42,570 nt of DNA from the IMG/VR virus record IMGVR_UViG_3300020215_000031, positions 1-42,570 of that record. One strand, given 5' to 3'. Made by a program: the position numbers and the translations under genes. The notes below the pieces were generated by a model. The model saw only the letters and a program-made list of their open reading frames with translations, had not been told where the DNA came from and made no database searches. Below, one piece after another: positions 3,811 through 20,652 of this stretch (position 1 is its first letter; every line of letters begins with the position of its first letter). The stretch comes from a virus.

Positions 3811-3887
3811 TGGAGCCACCTGAAGGATTTGAACCCTCGACCTACTGTTTACAAAACAGCTGCTCTACCTAGCTGAGCTAAGGTGGC
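3811..3887 (-). tRNA. tRNA-Thr (anticodon UGU), CCA encoded
   Basis: A full cloverleaf can be drawn on the minus strand: acceptor GCCACCT/AGGTGGC, D stem GCTC/GAGC with GG in the loop, anticodon stem GCTGT/ACAGT around loop TTTGTAA (anticodon TGT), T stem GAGGG/CCTTC with loop TTCAAAT, discriminator T and an encoded CCA. It lies in the late block between two small genes, in the same orientation, so it would be cut out of the late transcript. It would read ACA codons. Confidence 0.95.
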
Positions 3888-9566: not shown

Positions 9567-9953
9567 ATGAAAACTTTAGACCAGCGAAAACAAAGCCTCT
9601 CACATGCCACTGCTTCGGGCAGGGTTTCGTCTTGCTCTTCAGGAGGGCAGGTTTGTGTACCCACTCCACTCTCGGAGCTGGTGGCAGGTGAGGCGTTTTT
9701 ATACACCGCCCCAGTGCCGCTTTCAAAAAAGCGTTCATCGTTTCTATCTTTTCACAATCTCTTCAGGAAAGAGGAAACTCTGCTTATCGGGTTATACCCG
9801 ATACGTCCGCAAGGAAAATCTCTAATAGAAAACACCGTTAACGCTATAGGGATTTCCCTTACGTGCGTTTTCTTAGTCTTCTTCTGTGAACATGGTTGTT
9901 CACAGCCGAAGTACCCAATTTCCCAATCTATTGGGATTCAACAAACAAGATAA
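9567..9953 (+). CDS. Uncertain open frame in the early leader
   Basis: An open frame runs through the leader (ATG 9567; in-frame GTG at 9534), giving about 128 residues with Cys and Ser-rich parts and a hydrophobic stretch near the end (GISLTCVFLVFFC). Other frames, including the opposite strand, are also open. There is no SD. The position, right after a phage early promoter, resembles that of small early inhibitor genes, but composition does not clearly support coding. It could equally be an untranslated leader. Confidence 0.3.
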   Translation: MKTLDQRKQSLSHATASGRVSSCSSGGQVCVPTPLSELVAGEAFLYTAPVPLSKKRSSFLSFHNLFRKEETLLIGLYPIRPQGKSLIENTVNAIGISLTCVFLVFFCEHGCSQPKYPISQSIGIQQTR

Positions 9954-9975
9954 AACCAGAAACCAGAAAACAAAT

Positions 9976-10452
9976 ATGATTATTGAAGGAAAAACGTATA
10001 CGCCAGCACCAGAGGGATTGCACAACGCCGTATGTGTCGATGTGGTTGATTTAGGTCTAAAAGACACCGAATGGGGAAAGAAGCACAAATGCCGTCTTGT
10101 ATGGGAAATTGAAGCCACTCGAAATGATGGAAAGCGTTTTCTCATCATGAAGGAATACGGTGTATCTCTCAATGAGAAGGCAACCCTTCGCAAGGATATT
10201 CAGTCCTGGAGAGGTAAACCATTAACCAGTGATGAACTCCGCAAATTTGATCTCGAATCGTTGATTGGCCGTGGATGTCAGCTCGTGGTTACTCACAGTG
10301 AATCAGATGGGAAGACTTACGCTAATGCCCAAAATGTCATGAAGCCTGGCACTAACGTACTTACACCTTCTGGCTCGTACACCCGCAAGAAGGATCGCAA
10401 GGACGAACAACAGCCTGCCGTTGCTACTGTTGGAGAATCTGATTCGTACTAA
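9976..10452 (+). CDS. Conserved phage replication-associated protein
   Basis: The 158-residue protein begins MIIEGKTYTPAPEG, then HNAVCVDVVDLG, EWGKKHKCRLVWEIE, and a block LNEKATLRKDIQSWRG. This matches a widespread family encoded at the start of phage replication modules, often beside exonucleases or recombination genes; a single-stranded-DNA-binding role has been suggested for such proteins but I cannot confirm it here. The C-terminus is polar and acidic (DEQQPAVATVGESDSY), as in SSB-like tails. The start is set by the family pattern; the upstream A-rich sequence has no SD. Confidence 0.82.
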   Translation: MIIEGKTYTPAPEGLHNAVCVDVVDLGLKDTEWGKKHKCRLVWEIEATRNDGKRFLIMKEYGVSLNEKATLRKDIQSWRGKPLTSDELRKFDLESLIGRGCQLVVTHSESDGKTYANAQNVMKPGTNVLTPSGSYTRKKDRKDEQQPAVATVGESDSY

Positions 10453-10505
10453 GATCAAACGATCTTAGTTGGCACCGCCCCCTAATGGTCTAAAGGCAGG
10501 GGGCG
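10450..10505 (+). terminator. Tandem hairpins after the first early gene
   Basis: TAAGATC-AAAC-GATCTTA (10450-10467) begins at the stop codon of the preceding gene. It is followed by CGCCCCCT/AGGGGGCG (10476-10483 and 10498-10505, 14-base loop). No U tract follows, so they may protect the mRNA end or mark a processing or antitermination site rather than terminate. Confidence 0.4.
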
Positions 10506-10624
10506 CGCTCTCGCCTAATCAAACCCACCACAATACCTAGCGCGGAAGAAAACTATCCTTGCCTTGCACCACAACAGGTAGTGGTTGGTCTGAAGACTAA
10601 ACGCCATAAAAAGTATCTTGCAAA

Positions 10625-11269
10625 ATGAAATACATCGTATTTGACATCGAAACCATGGGGAAGACGGAGGCTGAGCTTGAAGAGTTCATGCCCGAGTTTG
10701 AAGCCTCAAAGGTTCTTAAAGACCCAGACAAGATCAAGGCTGACCTTGATAAGAAGAAGGAAGAGTGGCTGCGTGAAGCACCATTAAAGGCTGAGCGAGG
10801 CGCTATTCTCGTTATTGGCCTTCTCGACCACAACGACAACATCCAAATCCTAGAAGGCGATGAGAGGGACATCATCGAAGCCTTCTGGTCTCACTATCGT
10901 AGGTCCACTTGCCAATTCTTGGGCCATAACATCAAGAACTTCGACGTCCCATTCCTGGTCCGTCGATCTTGGGTCCATGGTTTACAGGTGCCCAGCGATG
11001 TTATGTCTGGCCGTTACCTTGGCCGACGCTTTGGGGACACCATGGAAGCCTGGAGCTGTGGTACTCGCGACATGATCAAGCTGGACACTCTCGCCAAGAT
11101 GTTTGGCGTTGGAGCTAAGAATGGCAGTGGCGAGAAATTTGCTGGCCTCTACCTCGCTGGTGGCAGCGCTCGCGAAGACGCCCTGAACTACCTCAAGAAT
11201 GACCTCACCCTCACACGCGATGTCGCTAAGCGTATGGGGCTTATCTTTGGAGGAATATCTGATGAATAA
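10625..11269 (+). CDS. 3'-5' exonuclease, DnaQ-like DEDD fold
   Basis: The 214-residue protein has Exo I FDIETMG (D7, E9), Exo II GHNIKNFDVPFLV (Asp near 106) and Exo III YLKNDLTLTRD with Tyr and Asp four apart, marking the DEDDy type. The full family resembles predicted 3'-5' exonucleases related to PolB exonuclease domains. It probably acts in phage DNA replication or repair. An inserted charged helix (DKKKEEWLREAPLK) lies after Exo I. It overlaps the next gene by 8 bases. The A-rich start lacks an SD. Confidence 0.88.
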   Translation: MKYIVFDIETMGKTEAELEEFMPEFEASKVLKDPDKIKADLDKKKEEWLREAPLKAERGAILVIGLLDHNDNIQILEGDERDIIEAFWSHYRRSTCQFLGHNIKNFDVPFLVRRSWVHGLQVPSDVMSGRYLGRRFGDTMEAWSCGTRDMIKLDTLAKMFGVGAKNGSGEKFAGLYLAGGSAREDALNYLKNDLTLTRDVAKRMGLIFGGISDE

Positions 11270-11549
11270 GACGATTGAATTAGGAGATACGGTGTTCATT
11301 GAGAAAAAGTGGAGAGTCCCGCAACTTCGCGCTGTTACTAAGTCCGATGGCTCTTTCTGTCTCGAAGAAATCCCAGGAGTAGAGCCAGTCTATCAAACCT
11401 TCCAGTTTCATGGGGTAGTGGTTGGTATCCAGAAAGAAGTACTCGTCCTCGATTGCCCAGGAGGCGCTGGAGTCAGTGGCCGCTACATGGCACGCAAGCA
11501 ACATGTCGTTCAAGTGGAGAAACTCAGGAAAGAGCAGGTGGCCGCATGA
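11262..11549 (+). CDS. Hypothetical early protein (beta-rich)
   Basis: The 95-residue product begins MNKTIELGDTVFIEKKW and looks largely beta-stranded (VYQTFQFHGVVVGIQKEVLVL). ATG 11262 is chosen for its SD (GGAGG, 8 bases upstream) and its overlap with the exonuclease stop. The GDTVF/VVVGIQ pattern suggests a small SH3-like barrel, which is inference only. Confidence 0.75.
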   Translation: MNKTIELGDTVFIEKKWRVPQLRAVTKSDGSFCLEEIPGVEPVYQTFQFHGVVVGIQKEVLVLDCPGGAGVSGRYMARKQHVVQVEKLRKEQVAA

Positions 11550-11812
11550 ACAACGGAGGACCAGCGTTTCCATTGCAGCACGAAAAGCTCTTCATCAAAG
11601 ACCACATGGTTCAGAATGAAGTAGTTGAAGGCGCTAAAGGTATGTCCCTTCGAGATTACTTCGCGGCGCATGCCATGCAAGGCCTGCTTGCTGGGAATGC
11701 TCAAGACGAAATGATGGAAGGATTAGATGGTTTAAGCCCTAAGGCTGTGTTGGTAGCGCATGCTTATGAATTTGCAGACGCTATGCTCGAAGAAAAGGAG
11801 GCATGCGAGTGA
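11546..11812 (+). CDS. Hypothetical phage protein (MSLRDYFAAHAMQGLL family)
   Basis: The 88-residue product has GMSLRDYFAAHAMQGLLAG and a C-terminal helix AYEFADAMLEE. This arrangement belongs to a very common small phage/prophage protein of unknown function, usually starting with GGPAFP-like residues as here (MNNGGPAFPLQ). ATG overlaps the previous stop (ATGA). Confidence 0.85.
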   Translation: MNNGGPAFPLQHEKLFIKDHMVQNEVVEGAKGMSLRDYFAAHAMQGLLAGNAQDEMMEGLDGLSPKAVLVAHAYEFADAMLEEKEACE

Positions 11813-11985
11813 AATGGTACGGCTACATCGGTCGTGATGGCGAGACTTACGGTTCACTCTGTGAGTTTTGTGTCGCCAAGCTTTCTTGGTCTGACCACGA
11901 GTTAGCGGAACTCAGCGATCATGATCGAATTAAGCCCTGTCAACTTTGCGGAATGGAGGAGAAGTTTAATGAGCCTCTTCATTAG
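11809..11985 (+). CDS. Small zinc-ribbon-like protein
   Basis: The 58-residue product has CEFC and CQLC pairs about 27 residues apart, able to bind one zinc ion. I chose GTG 11809 because AAGGAGG lies 7 bases upstream; ATG 11803 is only one base from that SD. The GTG overlaps the previous TGA. No family is named. Confidence 0.7.
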   Translation: MKWYGYIGRDGETYGSLCEFCVAKLSWSDHELAELSDHDRIKPCQLCGMEEKFNEPLH

Positions 11986-12601
11986 AGTACAAAACTCATT
12001 CTGGCGGCATCGCAAGACTTTCAGGTTACGCGCCATCCTGGGGTCTGACGATGCTAAGTGGGTTGTACCTCAACTGTGGAGCTATGCCTCGGAAAATCAA
12101 ACCGACGGCGACTTCTCCTCCTACTCCGCACAAGAAATTGCTCAAGCTATCGACTACACCAAAGATGCTCAGACTTTATGGAGCGCTCTACATCAGACTG
12201 GCTTCCTGGAGGATGGTCGCATTGTCGATTGGGAGGAACACAACGCCTACCATTCAACTTACAAGGAGCGTGCTCAGAAAGCAGCTCGTGCTCGATGGGA
12301 CAAAGAGCGCGAGGAAAAACAAGAAGAGAGTGCAGAAGCTAAGTTCATCAAAGAACAGTTTGAAAAGTTCTACGCAGCTTACCCTCGCAAGGTTGGAAAG
12401 CCGAATGCCTTCAAAGCTTTCGAGTCAAAGAAGCTCTACGCAATGATGGACATCGTTATGGGTGCTCTTGAGAAGCAAAAGAAGTGCCCTCAGTGGCTTA
12501 AAGACAACGGCCAATTCATTCCTCACCCCGCAACCTGGATCCGTCGCGAAGGCTGGATGGATCAAGTTCAAGAAACAAACGAACCAGAATCTTTTATATG
12601 A
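11969..12601 (+). CDS. Putative replisome organiser / helicase-loader-like protein
   Basis: The 210-residue protein has an N-terminal part resembling winged-helix replication proteins (DDAKWVVPQLWSYAS, SALHQTGFLEDGRIVDWEEHN) and a C-terminal block FYAAYPRKVGKPNAFKAF, then HPATWIRREGW, a signature of phage replication-initiator or DnaD-like proteins. It should help load the helicase at the origin. It has a good SD (GGAGGAG) before ATG 11969 and is next to the primase-helicase. The middle is a charged, coiled-coil-like linker. Confidence 0.8.
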   Translation: MSLFIRVQNSFWRHRKTFRLRAILGSDDAKWVVPQLWSYASENQTDGDFSSYSAQEIAQAIDYTKDAQTLWSALHQTGFLEDGRIVDWEEHNAYHSTYKERAQKAARARWDKEREEKQEESAEAKFIKEQFEKFYAAYPRKVGKPNAFKAFESKKLYAMMDIVMGALEKQKKCPQWLKDNGQFIPHPATWIRREGWMDQVQETNEPESFI

Positions 12602-12876
12602 AGCCAGAACCTATCACTGTAAATGTTAACCGTCTATGGAATGGTTACGCTGACGTACGGAGTTACATTGTAGATAAAGCCAGACTTACTGGCCGCTCTA
12701 TCCTTATTACTCTTGGAGAAACTGGAGAGCAAAAGTTCTTCTCGCACGAAGATGGGATACAAATTAACTCAACCGAGTTTAAGAGTAAGTACGATAACGA
12801 GACTTACACGCTTGTCTCCTTTGAATGGGCCGCCAAGAAAGTAGCCCCTAAATTCCAAGGTATGCTCTTTGAATAA
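12598..12876 (+). CDS. Hypothetical protein upstream of primase-helicase
   Basis: The 92-residue product (MKPEPITVNVNRLWNGY) looks mainly beta-stranded, with LTGRSILITLGETGEQKFF. The ATG overlaps the stop of the replisome-organiser-like gene. No family is recognised; position suggests a replication accessory role. Confidence 0.75.
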   Translation: MKPEPITVNVNRLWNGYADVRSYIVDKARLTGRSILITLGETGEQKFFSHEDGIQINSTEFKSKYDNETYTLVSFEWAAKKVAPKFQGMLFE

Positions 12877-12877
12877 T

Positions 12878-14563
12878 ATGACAATGACTCGCGAAGAAAT
12901 TATTGCAGCCTACCCCATTGAAGCTGAGTTGGCTAAGCGTGGGATTCAGTTAAAGCGTAAAGGCAATGAGCTAACCTGCCTCTGTCCATTTCACACAGAG
13001 TCCACACCTAGCTTTACAGTTACTCCATCGAAATCTCTCTTCTACTGCTTTGGCTGTGGAGTCAATGGCAGCGTCATTGATCTTGTAATGAAGCTCGACC
13101 GCCTTAGTTCAGCCAAGGCGATGGCAAAACTCACGGGAGAGAATCCACCTCAACCACCAGAACCAAAAACAGCCATCACGTTTGGTGGTAAAGAAGAGAA
13201 GATCTATAAGTATCTCGATGAAACTGGCGAACTCCTCTACGAGGTTGTTCGCTATAATCCTAAAGGCTTTCGCCAGCGCCACTACGTCAACGGCAATGTC
13301 GTGTGGTCGATGGATGGTGTTCGTAGGGTTCCATACAATCTTCCTACAGTACTTAATACAAACAAAGTGTGGATCGTCGAGGGGGAAAAAGATGCGGATA
13401 AATTAGGCGATCACGGCATCGTAGCCACCTGCAACGTTGGTGGAGCTGGAAAATGGATGGAAGGCTATTCTGATTTTCTAAAAGGAAAAGATGTAATTCT
13501 TTGTGGTGACAACGATGAGCCTGGCAAGAAACATATCGCTGGCGTACTCGACTCCCTCGCTGGCAAGGTCAAGTCGGCTCGCGTTGTCACCATTCCTTCT
13601 CCTTATAAGGATGTCTCCGACTTCCTTTCGACTAATACGGTTGAACATTTCCACGCCCTTTTAGATTTGGCTGATAAGGCCCCACGCATTGACGGCGGCA
13701 TCAATATCCCTGTTCGCTCTATGGGGGAGTTGGAGCATAGTTATCGTGAGTTCCTTAAGGTGGCTGAAACCACTTCCCTTAATCTTGGTGGCTGGCTTCC
13801 AAGCTTAGGTAAGAACGTCCGCAGTCTTGTCCCTGGCGAACTTGTTACCGTTATGGCCGACACTGGTGTAGGCAAAACAGCCATCCTCCAAAACATCGCC
13901 ATTCATGCACGGCCGCTCAAGGTTCTCCTCTTCGAGCTAGAACTGCCTGGCACCCTCTGCTTTGAACGCTTTCTTCAGATCGATAGTCAACGCCCAGGAA
14001 ACCGCATTCAGTCCACGTACGCCAATGGAGGCCAAGAAGATTGGGAGACCCATGGCCGCATCAATCACATCTACACCTGCTCGCTATCCAAGCTGTCTGT
14101 GGAGGACATCGAAAAGCTCATCATTAAATCTGAGCTTAAGATTGGCGAGCGCCCCGCAGTAGTAATGATTGATTACATTGGCCTCGTGGCTGGAAAGGGC
14201 GGGAGCCGCTACGAGCGCATGTCGAACGTGGCTGAGGAAATGAAGGTGTTAGCTAAGTCCACAAACACCATCATCATCCTCTCCTCGCAGATCCATCGTA
14301 AAGCAGAAGACGCTGGCAAGGCAGTATCACTTCACGACGCCAAGGACTCTGGCTCCATCGAAAACTCCTCTGGCTTAGTCCTTGGCTGCTGGAAGGAGTC
14401 TCATGCTCAGCTCAACATCAAGGTTCTTAAGAACACCAAAGGCAAGGCTGGCTTCACCATCCCATGCCGTTTCGATGGTGAGTCCCTTTCCATCACGGAA
14501 ATGATCGTCCCAGATAAAACACCCAAATGGCTGAGAGATTCAGACCGAGAGGAGGCGGCGTGA
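12878..14563 (+). CDS. Primase-helicase (T7 gp4-like)
   Basis: The protein of about 561 residues has an N-terminal zinc-binding domain (CPFH at 36-39 and CFGC at 57-60), a TOPRIM domain (VWIVEGEKDADKL near 165, LCGDNDEPGK near 205) and a DnaB/RecA-type helicase domain with Walker A DTGVGKTA (near 328) and Walker B VVMIDYIGLV (near 428). It primes and unwinds DNA at the phage fork. I start at ATG 12878, just after the previous stop; ATG 12884 is also possible and an earlier TTG is unlikely. Confidence 0.95.
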   Translation: MTMTREEIIAAYPIEAELAKRGIQLKRKGNELTCLCPFHTESTPSFTVTPSKSLFYCFGCGVNGSVIDLVMKLDRLSSAKAMAKLTGENPPQPPEPKTAITFGGKEEKIYKYLDETGELLYEVVRYNPKGFRQRHYVNGNVVWSMDGVRRVPYNLPTVLNTNKVWIVEGEKDADKLGDHGIVATCNVGGAGKWMEGYSDFLKGKDVILCGDNDEPGKKHIAGVLDSLAGKVKSARVVTIPSPYKDVSDFLSTNTVEHFHALLDLADKAPRIDGGINIPVRSMGELEHSYREFLKVAETTSLNLGGWLPSLGKNVRSLVPGELVTVMADTGVGKTAILQNIAIHARPLKVLLFELELPGTLCFERFLQIDSQRPGNRIQSTYANGGQEDWETHGRINHIYTCSLSKLSVEDIEKLIIKSELKIGERPAVVMIDYIGLVAGKGGSRYERMSNVAEEMKVLAKSTNTIIILSSQIHRKAEDAGKAVSLHDAKDSGSIENSSGLVLGCWKESHAQLNIKVLKNTKGKAGFTIPCRFDGESLSITEMIVPDKTPKWLRDSDREEAA

Positions 14564-14934
14564 ATGAAGAACAAATCCGAAAACTCTTCCCCCAAGCCAG
14601 TGCCGACTTCATCCGAAAAAACTTTGGTGATGTGGTTGAAGGTGCCTGGGAGGACGCCTCTACTCAACCAGCTTCTAGGGATGGGACATTGGCAGAGAGC
14701 CAAGCTCAAGAAACAAATCCAGTTGGCTTTTTTATCCGCATTACGAGCGTGCGGAAAAGACTCGCGGATTGGGATGGCATCGTTGGCAAGTACCACACTG
14801 ACTGCATCCGCTATGCTGGAATCATACCTAACGATGATCCAACAACGGCGTTTATCCAAACAACGCAACGCAAAGCAGAAAAAGGCGAAGAAGAGCATAC
14901 GCTCATAGAGGTATACAAATGGAATCCATCTTAA
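14560..14934 (+). CDS. RusA-like resolvase: frame B (GTG start; catalytic C-terminal half)
   Basis: A 124-residue frame begins with GTG 14560, which overlaps the primase stop. Its first 20 residues (NEEQIRKLFPQASADFIRKN) look like the usual leader of phage RusA-like proteins. Its last 66 carry the catalytic pattern RLADWDGIVGKYHTDCIRYA then GIIPNDD: the Asp-x-Asp, Lys, Asp and Asp-Asp expected of RusA Holliday-junction resolvases. The middle part (about residues 21-58) does not resemble the family; the expected segment is in the other frame (14564-14734). Frame changes fall at A6 and T6 runs. The stop overlaps the next gene. Confidence 0.65.
   Translation: MNEEQIRKLFPQASADFIRKNFGDVVEGAWEDASTQPASRDGTLAESQAQETNPVGFFIRITSVRKRLADWDGIVGKYHTDCIRYAGIIPNDDPTTAFIQTTQRKAEKGEEEHTLIEVYKWNPS
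14564..14908 (+). CDS. RusA-like resolvase: frame A (N-terminal core)
   Basis: A 114-residue frame starts at ATG 14564, 8 bases after GGAGG, the best SD spacing here. It contains VPGRTPLLNQLLGMGHWQRA and KLKKQIQLAFL, matching the N-terminal strand-turn-helix of RusA-like enzymes. After codon 57 it becomes Ser/Thr- then Lys-rich. A -1 shift at the T6-A heptamer would join codons 1-57 to 66 codons of frame B, giving a 123-residue protein, close to the roughly 120 residues of E. coli RusA. Whether frame A is also used alone is unknown. Confidence 0.55.
   Translation: MKNKSENSSPKPVPTSSEKTLVMWLKVPGRTPLLNQLLGMGHWQRAKLKKQIQLAFLSALRACGKDSRIGMASLASTTLTASAMLESYLTMIQQRRLSKQRNAKQKKAKKSIRS
14728..14734 (+). 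other. Candidate -1 frameshift heptamer T TTT TTA
   Basis: In frame A the codons are GCT TTT TTA, so the heptamer is in register for simultaneous -1 slippage, the same heptamer used in HIV-1 gag-pol. A 6-base hairpin TCCGCA-N9-TGCGGA (14735-14755) follows directly, closer than the usual 5-9 base spacer. The -1 frame reads straight into the RusA catalytic half. An in-register A AAA AAC heptamer sits at 14616-14622 in frame B, at the other frame switch. Confidence 0.55.
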
Positions 14935-19644: not shown

Positions 19645-20652
19645 ATGCGATCCATATTATTCCGACCTGGACCTACCGCTAAAACCTTTTACGGAGACCA
19701 TGGGACTCCCATCCCTGAGGGCACCTCAGTTGAAGCTGCCCTGAAGATGGCTGGACTTGATTGGCATGTCACGCGCCAACAACTCTCTGCCCACTTCTCC
19801 ATGACGCTTCTCCCTGTGCCGAATTACTACGCAGTCTTGCGAGAACCCCCTTGTACCGTTCTCTCAGTCTGTACGGGAGTCTTCGAGGTCCACACAAACC
19901 CCGAGGTCTTCTCCTACTTCCATCAGTTCCTTGTAAGTGGTGGACTCAATATGGACATCATTGGTTCTTTCGATGAAGGACGATGGATCTGGGCGCTTGG
20001 CAAGATGAAGTACCACTTCACCCTTGGCAGTGGTAACGACAAGATTCAACCTTATCTCTGTTTACGCTACAGCCACGTTCCAAACGAACGCATTCGGCCA
20101 ATCGTTCTTTGCGTTCGAGAGGTCGATCAATCTGTCTTCCCTCTCCTGCTCGATGTCGAGCGTCGTCGCATTCGCTGCAAGTCCAAGGATGAATGGGGAT
20201 GGAAGATGAAGGAGTGGTATCAAGATGTTCATGTGCTCGCTAAGAAAGCGGTTCGCACCTTTGAGAATCAAGTTGCTCTCCTCTCTCGCACGCCCGTGGA
20301 TTATGATGGACCAGTAGACAATGTCCTCTTTGAGACCTACTACGCTACACGCGACAAGAAGATCAAAGATCCCAGCCAATGCGTTCAAGTCTTGCGCTGT
20401 CAGCAAGCCATCCGTTCCATGCCTGGCTGTCAACTCTCTTCAGCTAAGGGTAACTGGTGGGGCGTCCTAAGCGGGATTGCCTGTTATACCGATCATTTTA
20501 TTCGCAAGGACAAAGGGCTGCGCATGGAGTCGGCGTGGTTCAAAGACCTGGCGAAAGCAAAACGCAGAGCACTGGAGATGATCCATAAAGCCTGCAAAAC
20601 ATTAGAACAACAATATGAAGAAGCAGAAATTAGAAAATCCAACTCCAATTGA
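19645..20652 (+). CDS. DUF932 / phage-plasmid primase-like family protein
   Basis: The 335-residue protein has AALKMAGLDWHVTRQ, an NPEVFSYFHQFLVSGGL segment, IIGSFDEGRWIWALGKM and LCLRYSHV. This is the order of the DUF932 (phage/plasmid-like TIGR03299) family, widespread on phages and plasmids with no settled biochemical role. The gene is preceded by the possible 8-codon leader and overlaps the next gene by 38 bases. Confidence 0.85.
   Translation: MRSILFRPGPTAKTFYGDHGTPIPEGTSVEAALKMAGLDWHVTRQQLSAHFSMTLLPVPNYYAVLREPPCTVLSVCTGVFEVHTNPEVFSYFHQFLVSGGLNMDIIGSFDEGRWIWALGKMKYHFTLGSGNDKIQPYLCLRYSHVPNERIRPIVLCVREVDQSVFPLLLDVERRRIRCKSKDEWGWKMKEWYQDVHVLAKKAVRTFENQVALLSRTPVDYDGPVDNVLFETYYATRDKKIKDPSQCVQVLRCQQAIRSMPGCQLSSAKGNWWGVLSGIACYTDHFIRKDKGLRMESAWFKDLAKAKRRALEMIHKACKTLEQQYEEAEIRKSNSN

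Follow-up and report, generated by a model that had tools for sequence, protein, structure and literature searches.

RusA cleaves Holliday junctions in a Mg2+-dependent manner, acting as a dimer, and the catalytic residues of the E. coli enzyme are an aspartate triad, D70, D72, and D91, plus the lysine K76. The known members of the RusA family consist of one chain of about 120 amino acids encoded in one frame (PMC3485210). In phage SPP1, genes 44/45 (G44P) seemed to specify a truncated RusA until a corrected sequence merged the two ORFs (PMC3485210). Two further kinds of described systems are close to the present case, namely same-strand overprinted genes of viruses such as phiX174, in which two open and selected frames have separate starts and of which the classic pairs encode unrelated products, one usually created de novo (PMC8227390), and programmed -1 frameshift genes such as those of phage tail assembly chaperones, dnaX, and IS elements (PMC5009743).

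The gene described here is located in the window, that is, the whole stretch of 42,570 nucleotides that was analyzed (IMG/VR virus record IMGVR_UViG_3300020215_000031). It is similar to the RusA family (PF05866, E. coli RusA, phage RusA-like proteins, and PHROG_34) in its Asp/Asp/Lys/Asp residues, the order beta2-alpha2-beta3-beta4, the N-terminal P..N motif and helix, the total size, and the adjoining primase-helicase gene. In contrast to that family, its halves are in two overlapping frames, its catalytic chain has an extra leader, and it has no Pfam match; it was not filed as a standard RusA because two frames are present in all 121 distinct members. As with SPP1 genes 44/45, a RusA-like gene is seemingly split so that a small ORF of its own contains the catalytic part, but the split in SPP1 was a sequencing error, whereas the split here is conserved. 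The two open, selected frames with separate starts are as in overprinted genes, although the products here seem to complement each other as the halves of one conserved enzyme fold. The -1 overlap and the in-register heptamer of the window are shared with -1 frameshift genes, from which the locus differs by the absence of a conserved slippery site, by long open frames on both sides, and by the frames having their own starts in relatives. To our knowledge, there is no overlapping gene pair whose frames encode complementary halves of one conserved enzyme fold. When the literature was searched for RusA together with overlapping genes or frameshift, no description of an overlapping or split RusA was found, and thus no earlier description of a RusA-like enzyme in an overlapping-gene architecture; one tool paper names 'RusA/RuvC', without detail, among genes said to contain frameshifts.

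The two frames and their similarity to RusA

The 0-frame coding sequence extends from GTG 14560 to position 14934 of the plus strand (124 aa) and contains a leader (EEQIRKLFPQASADFIRKN), a linker, and the RusA-like catalytic half (beta2-alpha2-beta3-beta4) with the motifs IRITSVRKRLADWDGIVGKYHTD...GIIPNDD and the residues D70, D72, K77, and D92; ATG 14527 is a possible alternative in-frame start. The +1-frame coding sequence, from ATG 14564 to 14908 of the same strand (114 aa), contains the RusA-like N-terminal core LKVPGRTPLLNQLLGMGHWQRAKLKKQIQLAFLSALRACG, hereafter the N-half, with beta1, the invariant Asn35, and helix alpha1, followed by a basic tail. The sequence-only reading had assigned the N-terminal core and the catalytic half to two frames, and both frames and the quoted motifs were located where it had put them. 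A Shine-Dalgarno (SD) sequence, AGGAGG, was detected by the SD scan at 14550-14555 (plus strand), 4 nt before GTG 14560 and 8 nt before ATG 14564, and this single element could serve both starts. The TGA stop codon (14561-14563, plus strand) of the upstream primase-helicase gene (12869-14563) overlaps GTG 14560 (GTGA) and abuts ATG 14564 (TGAATG), an arrangement suited to translational coupling, and both starts are likely coupled to this stop. The upstream replication module (9886-14563) encodes a phrog_862 protein, a 3'-5' exonuclease, a replication initiator, and the primase-helicase, which has CHC2 zinc-finger and DnaB_C domains. Elsewhere in the window are a tRNA-Thr (TGT) gene at 3811-3887 of the minus strand and, at 19645-20652, a 335-aa ORF matching phrog_1221 (8.5e-18), whose function is unknown.

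D70, D72, K77, and D92 were invariant in all 36 rows of the catalytic alignment and aligned with D70, D72, K76, and D91 of E. coli RusA. PHROG_34 (RusA) was matched by 20 of the 36 catalytic-frame members, the best at 1.3e-12. The window protein itself gave E = 0.071, and the Pfam search of the catalytic frame gave no PF05866 match. An HMM of the catalytic frame matched six single-chain phage RusA proteins (5e-5 to 1.7e-7), and the catalytic profile, when compared with canonical RusA, covered residues about 38-120 (P = 1.4e-7). The AlphaFold2 model of the catalytic chain (pLDDT 74) has a strand at residues 57-65, a helix at 76-85, and strands at 97-105 and 113-120, and is without the first strand and helix (beta1/alpha1); in some lineages the leader is predicted to be structured. 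In BFVD the model matched RusA proteins at a probability of 1.0. In PDB Foldseek, RusA 2h8c had the highest probability among the matches listed (0.66, E 0.8), with no significant match for either half, and the PDB sequence search found no RusA.

The N-half profile aligned with phage RusA over residues about 3-52 (hhalign 67.5%, P = 5e-5), a value that dropped to 14% when E. coli RusA led the alignment. Asn35 of the N-half is invariant and corresponds to the invariant Asn of the RusA family. The N-half was modeled as the alpha1 helix followed by a long basic helix; the Pfam search gave no match for the N-half, and the structure search with its model alone gave none. Homology of the N-half to RusA, as judged from profile and motif, is moderate.

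Conservation of and selection on both frames

When viral contigs were scanned with the 0-frame protein, 25 loci were obtained, and all of the full-length ones had an open +1 frame similar to one another. In the profile scans, 56 and 63 loci were retrieved with one or the other frame as the query, the opposite frame being recovered each time. Further relatives with both frames were the divergent branch L142-L145, L155-L161, the record BK063671.1, and 77 additional loci. In total, 239 loci representing 121 distinct cores were collected, in which the catalytic and N-half matches overlapped in the same +1 register without exception, the single-frame loci in the tally being solely canonical RusA controls fetched on purpose. 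Clustering of the 115 usable cores gave 79, 55, and 27 clusters at 90, 75, and 60% identity. Bacterial carriers were a Verrucomicrobiaceae MAG (L146) and a second genome of the Verrucomicrobiota phylum (L151); the search of the phylum that started from this MAG found the overlapping pair in only 2 of 289 genomes. INPHARED gave no matches when searched with the window proteins or L043, and one record, BK063671.1, when searched with the divergent L142 and L145. This record is Caudoviricetes sp. vir555, an archaeal-virus record whose host is given as Methanomicrobiales; the pair occupies 2462-2806 (L152), of which the annotation contains the N-half frame only, as the hypothetical protein DBA35050.1, and misses the overlapping catalytic RusA-like ORF. 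Two viral records were unusual in other respects. In IMGVR_UViG_3300011114_000728 (L021) the overlapping pair is present twice in tandem (42-641 and 1845-2381), with nearly identical catalytic halves and unlike leaders (of the MTDAMRRCMHREP type and the FPNAS type), which suggests a recent duplication or recombination at the leader boundary. In IMGVR_UViG_3300032305_000789 (L025/L082/L141) the similarity ends after DEDNLCEK in both frames, and this copy looks like a broken or recombinant one.

The codon alignment placed the differences between relatives on position 1 of the 0-frame codons (the wobble position of the +1 frame) in the N-half and on position 3 in the catalytic half. Counted over 24 disjoint sister pairs at 0-frame codon positions 1/2/3, there were 40/23/58 differences in the leader zone (residues 3-23), 136/69/48 in the N-half zone (residues 25-55), and 106/64/177 in the catalytic zone (residues 65-113), and the N-half and catalytic zones differed with chi2 = 64.7 and P = 9e-15 in the disjoint-pair test. 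The constrained frame therefore alternates along the gene. On the plus strand of the window it is the 0 frame in the conserved leader of the catalytic chain (14566-14628), the +1 frame in the N-half zone (14632-14724), where the 0 frame is an open linker, both frames over about nine codons (14725-14751), and the 0 frame again in the catalytic zone (14752-14898), where the +1 frame remains open and encodes the basic tail of the N-half chain. In the dual-coding zone (residues 56-64), the same bases encode the end of helix alpha1 and strand beta2, as FLSALRA in the +1 frame and FFIRITSV in the 0 frame of the window, and among relatives both FLSALRA and the 0-frame RFLVRVTS are conserved. Purifying selection on each frame thus acts mainly in its own zone, and on both frames in this short zone.

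Each frame is also open outside its own zone. When the 0-frame protein was held fixed and synonymous codons were redrawn, the +1 frame over residues 65-110 was open in 33 of 33 sequences, compared with 22-43% expected, and the reciprocal run, with the +1 protein fixed, gave an open 0 frame over the N-half in 33 of 33, compared with 19-60% expected. Across the catalytic core, the +1 frame was open in all 26 usable ones of the 27 clusters with <60% identity, where 7.8 were expected, and the control +2 frame was open in 1 of 26, where 0.5 were expected; these tests assume independent sequences, an assumption that even the 60% clusters satisfy only approximately. Such openness is needed by two full-length proteins and not by a frameshift fusion, and it therefore favors two proteins.

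Starts, slippery sequences, and rival readings

A 0-frame start codon was present upstream of the N-half ATG in 101 of the 121 relatives and only inside the N-half gene in 13; three had no 0-frame start, two of them being cut by contig ends. The starts of the catalytic frame were GTG or TTG only in L176, L191, L199, and L205. In at least four relatives, L161, L181, L182, and L187, a stop inside the N-half gene closes the 0 frame and is directly followed by an SD sequence and an ATG (AAGGAactcaggacATG, GGGAGcgtaaaaaATG, GGGAGcgtaagaaATG, and GGAGcttagaaaATG, respectively), which places the start of the catalytic chain at strand beta2. SD sequences before the N-half ATG were modestly enriched (36 of 110, compared with a background of 19%). 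The leaders of the catalytic chain are lineage-specific, including the FPNAS type, the CxxC zinc-ribbon-like type (L043, L084-L086), the MTDAMRRCMHREP type, and others, and appear to have been swapped as modules. In L043, L084, L085, and L086, a CxxC...CPKC zinc-ribbon-like leader replaces FPNAS upstream of the overlap, and the leader of L155 is similar. An MTDAM leader is in the catalytic frame in L009, L011, and L020 and in the N-half frame in L005, its frame being set by the length of the A-run before the N-half ATG (L005 1450-1520 compared with the other three). No ATG, GTG, or TTG start was found for the catalytic frame of L005, because the MTDAM leader is in frame with the N-half.

The sequence-only reading had identified slippery heptamers at both switch points. 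T TTT TTA (14728-14734, plus strand) has the register required for a -1 slip that leads from the ATG to the GTG frame, and the codon-position differences bear out a change of the selected frame near this T6-A run. The other proposed boundary, A AAA AAC (14616-14622, plus strand), is in register with the GTG frame, but slipping by -1 at this site would lead into the third frame (14562), in which stops are close, and not into the N-half frame; passage from the GTG frame to the ATG frame requires a +1 shift. This heptamer can therefore not mark a -1 switch between the coding frames. Among 43 representatives, T TTT TTA occurs in the window only, with T TTT TTG at the same spot in L035; in-register heptamers of some kind are present in about half of them at scattered positions, and no slippery site common to the 43 was found. 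The proposed alignment of homologues thus had a divided outcome, since the frame break is conserved in all 121 cores and the T6-A heptamer is not conserved among the 43 representatives.

Three mechanisms had been offered for the frame break, programmed frameshifting, transcript slippage at homopolymers, and two compensating indels, and the relatives speak against each of them. A -1 ribosomal frameshift at or near T TTT TTA would fuse the N-half and the catalytic half into a single chain of RusA size. This could explain why the heptamer is in register, why constraint passes from one frame to the other within a few codons of it, and how the catalytic frame of L005 could be translated without ATG, GTG, or TTG. 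However, the frame break is maintained where this heptamer and any other shared slippery site are lacking, the open stretches of the +1 frame past the switch (about 45 codons) and of the 0 frame before it (about 30 codons) exceed chance and are not needed by a fusion, the upstream leader is constrained in the 0 frame, and several relatives have an internal SD sequence and ATG. Furthermore, one shifted chain cannot hold both the helix end and strand beta2, because FLSALRA and RFLVRVTS share bases and are both conserved. A frameshift is therefore quite unlikely as the explanation of the family, and it is possible that it occurs in odd members such as L005. Transcript slippage is in difficulty for the same reason of the shared bases and because the heptamer is nearly absent from relatives. 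Slippage at A6 was, like the frameshift at T6-A, rejected as the principal mechanism.

Two compensating errors in sequencing or assembly, or decay of the gene, might be suspected from the precedent of SPP1 genes 44/45 (PMC3485210) and because both suspect sites are homopolymers, but the same frame break is found in all relatives, that is, in 121 distinct sequences from independent assemblies, with an archaeal virus record and two genomes of the Verrucomicrobiota phylum among the carriers and with selection on both frames. Error or decay was rejected on this conservation across 121 distinct cores and is extremely improbable; the frame split at the RusA-like gene is real and, as the relatives show, an ancient and conserved design. 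Alternatively, two proteins might be made of which the +1 product would not belong to the nuclease but would be an overprinted partner or regulator, with the catalytic chain acting alone and its leader replacing the N-half. The moderate homology of the N-half to RusA and the structured leader of the catalytic chain in some lineages are consistent with this. In contrast, it is specifically the N-terminal part of RusA to which the N-half aligns, with the invariant Asn present, the catalytic chain alone is modeled without beta1/alpha1, and the N-half is retained in every relative, whereas the leader varies from one lineage to another or is missing. A +1 product outside the nuclease is thus unlikely.

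A proposed split resolvase

The reading that we prefer, to which we assign a probability of roughly 0.68, is that the overlapping genes together encode a split RusA-like Holliday-junction resolvase from two separately initiated chains. The +1 chain (ATG 14564) would provide beta1, the loop with the invariant Asn, and helix alpha1, plus the basic tail, and the 0-frame chain (GTG 14560) would provide the active site (Asp/Asp/Lys/Asp), preceded by a leader that is specific to the lineage and by a linker encoded across the N-half region. In the window, ordinary initiation would take place at the two starts, which are separated by 4 nt, follow a single AGGAGG, and would be coupled to the primase-helicase stop, whereas in other lineages the start of the catalytic chain would lie inside the N-half gene or farther upstream. 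Both chains would probably associate and thereby rebuild one RusA-like subunit for phage replication and recombination. Separate translation of two polypeptides is well supported by the comparison of relatives for the family as a whole, and we infer it for the window itself. Co-assembly of both chains may be expected because their coverage of the RusA fold is complementary and the N-half, kept in all relatives while the leaders of the catalytic chain vary or are absent, is never lost. Cleavage of Holliday junctions is the predicted activity because the catalytic residues belong to the RusA family. We also consider it rather probable that these loci constitute a clade of heteromeric RusA enzymes, in which one domain is made of two obligate partner chains encoded in overlapping frames, with starts that allow their co-production and with coding regions that are inseparable by recombination.

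If this is true, the locus would represent a naturally split enzyme with its halves tied to each other physically in the genome. It would also be a rare instance of two partner halves of which one restricts, through its own code, the code of the other. The overlapping pair occurs widely among uncultivated viruses, one record of which is assigned to an archaeal host, and has been hidden from annotation because pipelines call at most one frame, which in vir555 was that of the N-half only. It would add to the RusA-like enzymes a resolvase clade that is missed by the Pfam RusA model, and it would provide a clean, testable system for the origin and upkeep of overlapping genes.
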